From positions 1-31,857 of the IMG/VR virus record IMGVR_UViG_3300037247_000138: 31,857 nucleotides of DNA; one strand, given 5' to 3'. The translations under genes and the position numbers were made by a program. This DNA comes from a virus. Below the pieces are notes generated by a model that did not search any database, had not been told where the DNA came from, and worked only from the letters and a program-made list of their open reading frames with translations. This document shows positions 18,607-22,030 of this stretch, piece after piece (within the stretch, counting starts at the first letter, position 1; each line of letters opens with the position of its first letter).

Positions 18607-18636
18607 ATATTACGAAAAATCATCTCTGCATGTCAA
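18607..18636 (-). promoter_or_regulatory. Sigma70-type promoter for the capsid unit
   Basis: On the leftward strand TTGACA (18631-18636), an 18-base AT-rich spacer, then TAATAT (18607-18612). The -35 is a perfect consensus and lies within the last codons of the DUF115-like gene. Start of transcription is expected near 18600, giving a leader of about 110 bases before the capsid ATG. Confidence 0.65.
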
Positions 18637-19396
18637 GTCCCTCAATTTCGACCTTAAAGCGCTCATAGTTTTCTCGGAAATGCTTTGCTTCTTTTTCTGA
18701 AACCGGCCACTCCGCGCCCGCAGGAACATCCGCAAGGAACCAATGAAACTCAATAGTGGCGCGGGCTGTGTACTGCTTCTGGTTCTTCATATATTCCACG
18801 CATGGAATGTTTTTAGGTAGTGGCGGAGCATGGTGAAACAGCTCATTACTATAATACGGCTTAAACGCACGCATCATCGGGCCGCTCATTGCGCGAATGT
18901 TAGCGCCAGCAGTCTGTCTTTGTACGCGTAAAATCTGGCGCTCGAACTTCGGCCAGGGCGCCTTACTCTGCGCGGTTTGCACATCCGGATCGTGAAAATA
19001 AGTAGGTCCTGTATAGCAATCCAGGCCCACAACGACGACCGGATTTCCGCCGAGCATTACTGCTACGACGACTGCGGCCATGCCGCTATTCAACCGGAGA
19101 TACGCGTTCGGGATTCTGTAGTCGCCCCACCAGTGCCGGGTGATAATTGATACCTCGTACGGACGCAAGATTTCCTCCATGAACTCACCTGTCATGCTGT
19201 GCTTGTGATCGTTGCACACGATGTGTGTAGGCGCGAAATACGTCTGCTTAAAGCCGTGGTCGTTAGCGCTCAACACGGCTGCAAACTCCGTGCCTTTTGG
19301 TATCCACGCAAGGTCACGTATTGCTGAAGGCCCACCGCCGATAACAAGTATTGGACCGCGAAGTTTATTTACCCGGTGGGTGATTAGGTTTGCCAT
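18620..19396 (-). CDS. DUF115-like Rossmann protein (glycosylation-type)
   Basis: A 258-residue protein. Residues 15-24 (PILVIGGGPS) form a nucleotide-binding strand-loop. SANDHG (43-48) and THIVCND (57-63) follow, then NSGMAAVVVAVMLGG (103-117) and VVVVGLDCY (120-128). This order matches DUF115-type proteins, a family linked to sialic- or pseudaminic-acid transfer onto flagellin. The acceptor here is unknown. It is the last gene of an enzyme cassette and directly precedes the capsid gene, whose promoter lies in its 3' end. A transferase or nucleotide-sugar-binding role is likely; target and sugar are not deducible. Confidence 0.6.
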   Translation of the reverse strand: MANLITHRVNKLRGPILVIGGGPSAIRDLAWIPKGTEFAAVLSANDHGFKQTYFAPTHIVCNDHKHSMTGEFMEEILRPYEVSIITRHWWGDYRIPNAYLRLNSGMAAVVVAVMLGGNPVVVVGLDCYTGPTYFHDPDVQTAQSKAPWPKFERQILRVQRQTAGANIRAMSGPMMRAFKPYYSNELFHHAPPLPKNIPCVEYMKNQKQYTARATIEFHWFLADVPAGAEWPVSEKEAKHFRENYERFKVEIEGLDMQR

Positions 19397-19655
19397 AGAG
19401 CGCTACCCGCATCCCTCTTTCGTAAGCGTACGTGTTTCGACAGTGATCTTTTTCATGCCACCGATCAATCGGCGCTGAGAGAATGTACGCGATGTTTACT
19501 TGCCAGCAAGAGCCATCTACGAGCCAGCGGCCCAACAGCCCTGAGACTGATTCGCGAGATTGCGCCCACGGAAAGAACACGATCGCGCAGACCAGCATGT
19601 TGAGCGCGACGTACAGCGGAAAGATCACCTGTTTGAATGTCACTTCAATTTTCAT
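19365..19655 (-). CDS. Small membrane protein in the enzyme cassette
   Basis: A 96-residue protein with one N-terminal membrane helix (residues 9-29, VIFPLYVALNMLVCAIVFFP). A mature part follows with WQVNIAYILSAPIDRWHEKD and a Cys-Arg pair, ending in a basic tail (ERGMRVALYGKPNHPPGK). It overlaps the DUF115-like gene by 32 bases and shares four bases with the ATP-grasp gene. It could anchor the cassette enzymes at the inner membrane, but nothing in the sequence proves this. Family not recognised. Confidence 0.58.
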   Translation of the reverse strand: MKIEVTFKQVIFPLYVALNMLVCAIVFFPWAQSRESVSGLLGRWLVDGSCWQVNIAYILSAPIDRWHEKDHCRNTYAYERGMRVALYGKPNHPPGK

Positions 19656-20572
19656 CTTATTAAGTCCTTGTCAGCGAGAACCGATTCAGGCCACTCGCCA
19701 GCTTCAATTTCATCGAACAGCACTTTGAACATATCAGCCCACTTGTGCGGGCTGTTCCAGCAGACGCACTCGTCACAGTTACCGGGTGACGGCCAGGGCC
19801 AACCTAAAGTCGTCTCAAGCAAGAGCCAGCCGTTCGGTCCTTCTAAGATATCGAATGCGCACCACTTTGTTTCGATCTCTGCGGCGATCTCTTTTGTGTA
19901 CTCTAACAAACTCGCAATCTTGTCGTCCATGACTAATACCGGCTCGACGTTTCCAGTCTGTGCCATTGGCCGATCGGCGAAGTTATACCGTTTAAACACG
20001 AAGAACTTCGTCCCGATTATATTGACTCGCCACGTGACATCGTGCGAGATGTATTCTTGCCAGATTAGATAGCCCTTCTGATTCGGGTAGTGCGATAGGT
20101 TGGGAATACCATCACCGACAAATACCAGTTCGATCTCGCGTCGCGCTTCAACCATGTTCGTAATCAGCCGAACGTTACACGACGACGCGCCTACTTTGGC
20201 TTTCGATATGAACGGATAAGTCATGTCAGATAAAAGTATCTGCGCATCAGCTTCAGAGAACGCCAGTTCAGTGTGCGGCATCCAAGGATGAAACTGCTGT
20301 GTTTGCCCAATCTTGTCTTCGTAAAGCTCAACTTGGGTTGGGTCTTGAATCAGGCGCATACCCGGCACTTCACGCATTATATCCGCTACGCGTCGATGCC
20401 ACTGCAAAAGTTTTTCATTCATAGCTAGGCGAATAAAAACGTATCCTGGCACGCGTAGCTGAAATGAAGCCCTAACTTTGCGTGCACGCCAGCCACGACG
20501 TTTCGCTTCAGTGACAATAACTTTGTGCCAAATAGATTTCGGCAACTCGTCAAATACATACATGACGTTCAT
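19652..20572 (-). CDS. ATP-grasp fold enzyme
   Basis: A 306-residue protein from ATG 20572, which is fused to the stop of the upstream glycosyltransferase gene (ATGA); a longer reading from 20620 would only cover that gene. ATP-grasp features appear in order: YEDKIGQTQQF (84-94), a Lys-bearing glycine loop ISKAKVGASSCNVRLI (122-137), the adenine-hinge strand YLIWQEYI (168-175), WRVNIIGTKFFVFKRYN (181-197), and a metal-ligand region FDILEGPNGWLLLETTLGW (250-268). The usual E-x-N near the end reads E-T-T, so one metal ligand may differ. Such enzymes join a carboxylate to an amine or thiol through an acyl-phosphate. Substrate unknown; protein or peptide tagging is one option. Confidence 0.68.
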   Translation of the reverse strand: MNVMYVFDELPKSIWHKVIVTEAKRRGWRARKVRASFQLRVPGYVFIRLAMNEKLLQWHRRVADIMREVPGMRLIQDPTQVELYEDKIGQTQQFHPWMPHTELAFSEADAQILLSDMTYPFISKAKVGASSCNVRLITNMVEARREIELVFVGDGIPNLSHYPNQKGYLIWQEYISHDVTWRVNIIGTKFFVFKRYNFADRPMAQTGNVEPVLVMDDKIASLLEYTKEIAAEIETKWCAFDILEGPNGWLLLETTLGWPWPSPGNCDECVCWNSPHKWADMFKVLFDEIEAGEWPESVLADKDLIR

Positions 20573-21288
20573 TTCCAGTGCTCCGCAACCCAGCGCATTT
20601 TTTGTGCGTTGTGGTCCCACGGTCGGGGTTTACCATGAAACATGACGATCCTACAGCGGTTACGTACGTGATTACAGCGAAGACAGCGATCAAGTTTTGA
20701 TGACATCACACCTTCATTACGCGTCCAGACTGCTTGATCCGGACCGAGCTTATAAGAGAGCCACCCTTGATCGCTGCCCATAAGGCCAGCGTCGAGAGCT
20801 TCTTGCGGCGATGTCTCTGGATCAAAGTCGTCAAACACGTATGAAAACGCGCCGGTATCCATCAGATACATCGCGCCGCCATATCGCTTCTGTTGAACGT
20901 TCCCCCGATTTAGCCGTATTCCTACGAACGGCTCTGAACGATCCCAGAGCGGTGTCACGTCATCAACGAGTACAACGTCAATGTCCAGAACAACGATGCG
21001 GGGTCCGAAAATGGAGATCATCTCTTTGCTGAATATCTTTAGGCGTCGGTAACACGAAACCCAGCGGTCGATAGGATTACGCACGTCTGCAAAGTCGTCC
21101 CATAACGGGAACGTCTCACCGTTGATCCCTTCTGGATCGTCAGTAATACAGACGAACCGATGCGGCTTGTGGTAGTGCCGGTTCACCATGTTCTCTAAGA
21201 TGTTGACGTGTTTAGCCGTGAACTCACAGCGACTCGGACCTGTCCACCAGTCGGGGGTTTTCCACTTGAAGCAAATTACTGTCAGCAT
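20569..21288 (-). CDS. GT-A fold glycosyltransferase, copy 2
   Basis: A 239-residue protein starting MLTVICFKWK. ATG 21288 is preferred over a start further upstream (21507) because it follows the upstream stop by one base and matches the start of its paralogue. Motifs: CITDDPEGI (47-55), a metal-binding DID at 102-104 (VVLDIDVVLVDD), YGGAMYLMDTGAFSYVFDDF, GSDQGWLSYKLG, and a terminal MFHGKPRPW. These agree with GT-A glycosyltransferases of the GT8/GT32 type that use Mn2+ and a sugar nucleotide. By eye about half of its residues match the neighbour at 21290-22030. Likely cytoplasmic; acceptor unknown. Confidence 0.72.
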   Translation of the reverse strand: MLTVICFKWKTPDWWTGPSRCEFTAKHVNILENMVNRHYHKPHRFVCITDDPEGINGETFPLWDDFADVRNPIDRWVSCYRRLKIFSKEMISIFGPRIVVLDIDVVLVDDVTPLWDRSEPFVGIRLNRGNVQQKRYGGAMYLMDTGAFSYVFDDFDPETSPQEALDAGLMGSDQGWLSYKLGPDQAVWTRNEGVMSSKLDRCLRCNHVRNRCRIVMFHGKPRPWDHNAQKMRWVAEHWK

Positions 21289-21289
21289 G

Positions 21290-22030
21290 TCATTTCCAGT
21301 TATCTCGCACCCATTGATATTTTCGTGCATCAGGGTCCCACGGCTTAGGGTGCCCGTGAAAGTGAATGATCCTTGCGTACGAGGCGTGTATCCGGTTATG
21401 CCACAACAATTTCCCGTCGTTCTGAAAAGATAGTACACCGTCTCTGCGCGTCCAGACCGCGTGACCGCAGCCGAGCTTGTATGACATCCACGCCTGATCG
21501 CTACCAATGTAATTAGCGTCTTTAACTACTTGTGGTGATGTTTTCGCGTCAAACTCATCCCACACGTAACTGTGTGCGCCTGTGTCCATCAGGTACATTG
21601 CGCCGCCGTACACCTTGTCAACGTGGAAGTGACGGTTGAGCGTAGTTTTTTTGTGCAGTCGTATTCCGACAAACGTCTCAGATCGAGCAAGCATCTGTGT
21701 GATGTCGTTCACGATTATGCAATCAAGATCCAGAGACAAGACGCGAGGCCCGAAAATCTCTCGCATCTCTTTGCTAAATATCTTTAGGCGCCTGTAGTTC
21801 GAAAGAAAGGTGCTATCCGGGTTTGCAAGTTCAACGTGGTCATCCCACAGCGGATATGTCTCGCACTCTACACCTTCTGGATCGTCCGTAATGCAAACGA
21901 GACGATACGGCTTGTGGTAGTGGCGTGCGAACATGCGCGCGAACACGTTGACATGCTCCGCCGTAAACTTTCTGTCATCGCGCGTCCACGATGCAGGGGG
22001 TTGCCACTTCCAACAGATTACCGTTAGCAT
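21290..22030 (-). CDS. GT-A fold glycosyltransferase, copy 1
   Basis: A 246-residue protein starting MLTVICWKWQ one base after the stop of the head-protease gene. Motifs parallel the next gene: CITDDPEGV, DLD at 101-103 (VLSLDLDCIIVND), YGGAMYLMDTGAHSYVWDEF, GSDQAWMSYKLG and HFHGHPKPW, all expected in Mn2+-dependent GT-A transferases. Both copies keep the metal, acceptor-loop and C-terminal motifs, so both look active. Differences cluster after the DxD and near the C-terminus, where acceptor choice is usually set. An in-frame reading from 22090 is rejected because it merely overlaps the protease gene. Confidence 0.72.
   Translation of the reverse strand: MLTVICWKWQPPASWTRDDRKFTAEHVNVFARMFARHYHKPYRLVCITDDPEGVECETYPLWDDHVELANPDSTFLSNYRRLKIFSKEMREIFGPRVLSLDLDCIIVNDITQMLARSETFVGIRLHKKTTLNRHFHVDKVYGGAMYLMDTGAHSYVWDEFDAKTSPQVVKDANYIGSDQAWMSYKLGCGHAVWTRRDGVLSFQNDGKLLWHNRIHASYARIIHFHGHPKPWDPDARKYQWVRDNWK

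Follow-up and report, generated by a model that had tools for sequence, protein, structure and literature searches.

A glycosyltransferase and ATP-grasp gene cassette in a phage head operon, a candidate accessory system for virion glycosylation

Composition of the cassette

The window is a metagenomic virus record of 31,857 bases (IMGVR_UViG_3300037247_000138). It carries a head module on the minus strand in the order TerL, portal, probable scaffold, ClpP-like protease, a five-gene cassette and the major head protein; all results described here are computational. Five tightly packed open reading frames (ORFs; 22030–18620) make up the cassette, with the ClpP-like protease on one side and the capsid gene on the other. 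They encode two GT8-like glycosyltransferases (GT1 and GT2), an ATP-grasp ligase, a small membrane protein and a GT42-like putative glycosyltransferase (Table 1). A preliminary description of the window had placed five genes in this interval, and they lie there, all on the minus strand. The enzyme classes it gave are correct and can be refined: the first two glycosyltransferases resemble GT8 enzymes (glycogenin), and the protein it called DUF115-like is nearest to GT42 sialyltransferases. The ATGA overlaps it reported are present at two of the four internal junctions (GT2/ATP-grasp and ATP-grasp/membrane protein), but GT1 and GT2 are separated by a 1-bp gap and the membrane protein and GT42-like genes overlap by 32 bp. 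GC content does not change sharply at the cassette edges, and promoter-like sites in the cassette region are no more frequent than in shuffled sequences.

GT1 and GT2 are tandem paralogues (58% identity); of the two, GT2 is more similar to the GT8 that related phages carry as a single copy (63–64% identity). The DxD (LDLD) and GSDQ motifs are intact in both proteins in the alignment, in which residues D102 and D104 are invariant. The single sequence from the window falls short of the Pfam GT8 cut-off; the family profile matches glycogenin, a GT8 enzyme, with an E-value of 1.6e-4. Judged from the match to a GT-A family and the DxD motif, both are GT8-like glycosyltransferases.

ArgX, LysX and RimK are ligases that attach amino acids to protein carboxylates. 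The AlphaFold model of the ATP-grasp protein (predicted local distance difference test, pLDDT, 93.4; predicted template-modelling score, pTM, 0.91) has its best PDB matches in Foldseek to ArgX/LysX (E 1e-14) and matches RimK with template-modelling (TM) scores of 0.70–0.74, at 11–19% sequence identity to the matched structures. Two residues never vary in the family alignment, the ATP-site lysine K124 and D241, and E253 is present in 30 of the 31 sequences. The modelled ATP-grasp fold, with the ATP-binding lysine and two acidic metal ligands, places the protein in the LysX/ArgX/RimK-like class. The family nevertheless differs from these enzymes in three respects. It scores below their cut-offs (NCBIfam LysX, E 7e-7, 28.6 bits against 275.6; RimK, 17.2 bits against 143.4), it has Thr/Ser at the position of the third metal ligand, which is Asn in RimK/LysX-type enzymes, and it is almost confined to viruses.

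Relatives of the ligase were recovered by profiles alone, as a single-sequence pattern scan with the window protein returned none. Three queries against 50,697 phage records found no relative, and a five-sequence profile found none in cellular genomes. A 31-sequence profile detected 74 viral loci and, among 84,980 genomes, seven remote cellular loci with 23–29% identity, which ruled out describing the family as strictly viral. By sequence, then, the family is abundant in uncultured viruses and nearly virus-restricted, with remote cellular cousins. The four cellular loci that were read, of the seven, are all of surface-polysaccharide type, with genes for ABC-2 export, uridine-diphosphate (UDP)-sugar dehydrogenase, a glycosyltransferase and a deacetylase beside the cousin. 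One of the cellular relatives, in a Gammaproteobacteria metagenome-assembled genome (L143:1852-6750), is a 1632-residue fusion of an ABC transporter ATPase, TPR repeats, a GT4-type glycosyltransferase and ATP-grasp, next to ABC-2 permease, UDP-sugar dehydrogenase and epimerase genes. It is chiefly this location of the cousins in polysaccharide loci that leads us to assign the ligase to a glycan pathway.

The small membrane protein has one strong hydrophobic stretch, peaking near residues 10–28, and its family, phrog_3342, is of unknown function in PHROG. The fifth protein has no Pfam match above cut-off. Its family profile matches CstII (E 1.3e-3), and its AlphaFold model (pLDDT 87.7) matches CstII in Foldseek with E 4e-4 and probability 1.00 but TM scores of only 0.44–0.47, followed by a DUF115/MptE-type HPPK (E 1.3e-2). 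It resembles GT42 CstI/CstII and DUF115/MptE-like proteins in fold and in the conserved G-x-D core motif, which weakly suggests a putative glycosyltransferase nearest to the GT42 sialyltransferases.

Table 1 Features of the cassette and of the adjoining head module in the window
Feature	Coordinates	Strand	Evidence or remark
GT1, GT8-like (glycogenin-type GT-A) glycosyltransferase, 246 aa	22030-21290	-	phrog_1962, E 4.9e-11
GT2, GT8-like glycosyltransferase, 239 aa	21288-20569	-	phrog_1962, E 3.4e-10
ATP-grasp ligase, LysX/ArgX/RimK-like, 306 aa	20572-19652	-	AlphaFold model and Foldseek
Small one-helix membrane protein, 96 aa	19655-19365	-	phrog_3342, E 2e-4; hydrophobic stretch
GT42 (CstII sialyltransferase)/DUF115-like putative glycosyltransferase, 258 aa	19396-18620	-	phrog_4603 alpha-2,3-sialyltransferase, E 5.7e-6
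Major head protein, next gene downstream and possible target	18488-17415	-	phrog_9953, E 3.8e-34
ClpP-like protease, upstream neighbour	22730-22032	-	Pfam CLP_protease, E 2.9e-13
Probable scaffold protein	23977-22754	-	role suggested by position and composition; in most related contigs a homologue lies ahead of the slot
Portal	26002-24047	-	weak P22-like match
TerL	27669-26065	-	head module

Recurrence and placement in virion modules

In the preliminary description, absence of the gene set from related phages, along with unmodified capsid and tail proteins, was to count against its reading; the set recurs widely. In two contigs of the same group, genes for GT8, ATP-grasp, the membrane protein and the GT42-like protein follow one another as in the window, with 46–64% identity, next to a capsid gene that is 83–95% identical over the available parts. 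The ATP-grasp ORF is readable in 73 of the viral loci. In 66 of these, a GT8 gene lies no more than 2.8 kb away on the same strand, at a median distance of 267 bp, and at least three of the seven loci lacking a linked GT8 end at a contig edge. When the loci are clustered at 95%, the link persists in 60 of the resulting 66 groups. A glycosyltransferase was never used as query in the ATP-grasp scan, indicating that the linkage is not a search artefact. This pairing, together with homology and synteny at 46–64% identity, puts the cassette far beyond chance.

The same data do not bear out the five genes as one unit. ATP-grasp and GT8 are the sole tightly linked pair, and the membrane protein and GT42-like genes also occur alone; the membrane protein was accordingly rejected as an integral fifth member, being present where the other cassette genes are not (L116 and L117). 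Other cassettes have additions, namely Methyltransf_24, a GT2-family enzyme (phrog_1721), a nucleoside-diphosphate (NDP)-sugar epimerase or a sulfotransferase. Counts from iterated methyltransferase and small-membrane-protein profiles were discarded, as these profiles recruited alternative-frame ORFs in GC-rich contigs, where some short ORFs may be miscalled; the counts were taken instead from BLAST clusters C4 and C6. An apparent GT8/ATP-grasp fusion in contig L025 was rejected as an overlapping-frame artefact.

The linkage also bears on the idea that the ligase acts independently of the glycosyltransferases and tags a virion protein with amino acids by itself, in the manner of RimK on ribosomal protein S6. 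The nearest solved folds, ArgX, LysX and RimK, belong to enzymes that extend protein carboxylates, as this would require. It is quite improbable nonetheless, as it leaves a nearly constant GT8 neighbour unexplained, and the fusion to a glycosyltransferase domain in the cellular relative points to a joint glycan pathway.

Cassettes are found between MuF and the prohead protease, between capsid and Neck1, beside TerL, after the head protein, and before tail genes; head-gene labels in distant contigs are profile matches. The insertion point thus shifts between phages, but the virion module is constant. The phages concerned span TerL families phrog_38, phrog_2 and phrog_9, portal families phrog_146 and phrog_12, and head-protein families phrog_9953, phrog_10 and phrog_3437. 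Such varied families around a constant virion module point to several independent gains, and the constant placement may reflect selection for co-expression with virion genes.

A search with a capsid profile gave 28 contigs, which we compared together with the window's relatives. These capsid relatives share the order portal–scaffold–slot–capsid–tape, with varying slot content. The slot is empty (129–206 bp) in L135, L137, L138 and L139. It holds only a 142–180-residue HExxH-type protein in L115, L118, L119 and L136, and this protein with a small membrane protein in L116 and L117. A GT42-like gene is present with other sugar genes absent in L122, L129 and L133; sulfotransferase, GT8 and GT42-like genes are found in L123, and GT2, GT8 and GT42-like genes in L134. 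ATP-grasp, membrane protein, GT8 and GT42-like genes occupy the slot in L016, L130, L132 and the window's group. The claim that normally nothing intervenes between protease and capsid therefore holds for only part of the phage group, because the slot is variable and the protease is among its variable contents. It follows that the cassette is accessory and the membrane gene separable; relatives without the cassette exist, so it is dispensable for the head module.

In L134, the slot also contains a 256-residue ORF (L134:6449-7219) with an RLGDGE motif and no PHROG match. The motif is reminiscent of GT-D/DUF1792 glycosyltransferases.

So wide-ranging a slot, with seemingly unrelated HExxH-type, HNH-like and membrane genes, could hold a loose set of unrelated passengers. 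We give this explanation almost no credence, because ATP-grasp and GT8 are linked across many phage types and positions and the active-site motifs are intact.

Possible function of the cassette

We propose that the locus is probably an accessory cassette for virion glycosylation in the head operon, acting late and including a ligase that adds an amino acid or similar group. The proposal is supported by the recurrence, the position in virion modules, the variation of the slot, the company of glycan enzymes, the precedent of phage Corndog and the cellular cousins. Given its position and strand, the cassette would be transcribed together with the head genes late in infection. A short sugar on a co-produced protein, most likely a capsid or tail protein, would be assembled or lengthened by the two GT8-like enzymes, with the GT42-like protein probably taking part. 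The ATP-grasp enzyme, with its LysX/ArgX/RimK-like fold, may attach an amino acid, or an amine like it, through an amide bond to a carboxylate of the sugar or at the end of that protein. The resulting coat would probably alter recognition of the particle or its survival outside the cell.

A more specific version is put forward tentatively and with some doubt: a new class of virion glycosylation in uncultured phages, in which GT8 and the virus-dominated ATP-grasp family together would furnish a capsid or tail glycan with an amino acid or peptide-like group in amide linkage. Literature searches for a phage modification with an amide-linked amino acid on a virion glycan found none.

The preliminary description knew of no similar system, but the head modules of Corndog and its relatives carry an O-methyltransferase and three glycosyltransferases between the portal and the capsid-protease gene (PMC4351075). 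These enzymes were detected in infected cells but were missing from the virions, and the capsid was suggested to be what they modify (PMC4351075). Glycans on virion proteins are described for Che8, Corndog and Myrna (PMC12363180, in the statement citing Freeman et al. 2023), with weaker antibody recognition, as summarized in papers citing Freeman et al. 2023. Catdawg, which is related to Corndog, has the O-methyltransferase and three glycosyltransferases in the portal/protease interval, and one of the latter belongs to phrog_1721, as does the GT2-family enzyme of several ATP-grasp cassettes. Like the window, these cluster O mycobacteriophages have sugar-modifying enzymes inside the head module; unlike it, they have no ATP-grasp, GT8 or GT42-like genes, and their glycosyltransferase families and head module are different. 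Tetraselmis viridis virus S20 (NC_020840) provides a further parallel: a GT8 (phrog_1962) homologue, an 'alpha-2,3-sialyltransferase', a methyltransferase and other glycosyltransferases lie between head genes and head closure Hc1, inside the virion module. Its set is larger, and a protein search found no ATP-grasp relative in it. Virion glycosylation from the head module is thus already known from Corndog; the composition of the cassette and the ATP-grasp family are new.

Several points weigh against virion glycosylation. The contig is a metagenomic fragment. Profiles of the window's GT8, ATP-grasp and DUF115 proteins have no match among the Catdawg genes. The Thr/Ser in place of the usual Asn metal ligand makes the chemistry of the ligase uncertain. 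In addition, not one capsid alignment column separates GT8 carriers from non-carriers; the capsid is therefore not specifically implicated, and the target cannot be read from it. The suggestion in the preliminary description of a late glycan modification of virion or host surface is upheld, without the capsid being singled out as the target.

The second half of that suggestion, modification of the host surface late in infection for superinfection exclusion or against re-adsorption to debris, with the membrane protein as anchor, is unlikely but has several arguments in its favour. Surface glycans of bacteria are commonly the product of GT42 and GT8 enzymes, the top structural matches are CstII and glycogenin/LgtC-type enzymes, the cellular ATP-grasp cousins lie in polysaccharide loci, and phage glycan clusters are usually interpreted in this way (PMC7824862). 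However, the features of gtrABC serotype conversion (GtrA flippase, GtrB polyprenol-phosphate glycosyltransferase and polytopic GtrC glycosyltransferase) have no family matches among the five genes, the membrane protein is also present without glycosyltransferases, and a host-surface role needs no constant placement within virion modules. A tyrosine integrase is present in one of 12 records, most of which may be incomplete, and this makes lysogenic conversion unlikely.

Viral glycosyltransferases can also add glycans to DNA as a form of hypermodification (Pyle et al. 2024, as cited in PMC12619734), and the glycosyltransferases and ligase could act on phage DNA bases. We regard this as very improbable. 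A thymidylate-synthase-type hydroxymethylase is absent from 12 related records, many of which may be incomplete, and the placement with head genes and the accompanying sugar methyltransferases, epimerases and sulfotransferases better fit protein or surface glycans. A search for Tet/JBP in 16 records gave no match, with the positive control equally silent.

Virion glycosylation is experimentally known in a few mycobacteriophages. The cassette suggests that many lineages of uncultured phages have a related strategy, based on a different enzyme set and a previously unrecognised ligase family and encoded in an interchangeable slot of head operons. If so, the surface chemistry of the particle would be a modular phage trait and a new ligase family would open to biochemistry; relatives with and without the cassette offer a clean comparison.

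Other genes of the window and its relatives

Within the comparison, a ClpP-like protease after the scaffold gene is found in the window only, and relatives have the HExxH-type protein there (for example, L002:5232-5753, L115:2488-3030 and L118:5563-6084) or nothing. The L002 protein matches no PHROG or Pfam family. The ClpP-like protein could be a prohead protease acquired by exchange, or no more than a further slot gene.

The two closest relatives have a Sulfotransfer_2-like gene (Pfam E 1.4e-4) between TerL and portal (L002:1526-2128 and L003:3786-4388). This interval is a second insertion point in the head module for a possible sugar-modifying enzyme.

On the plus strand, positions 801–2423 of the window match phrog_1745, a 'DNA transfer protein' (E 7.7e-121), adjoining a primase/helicase-like fragment.

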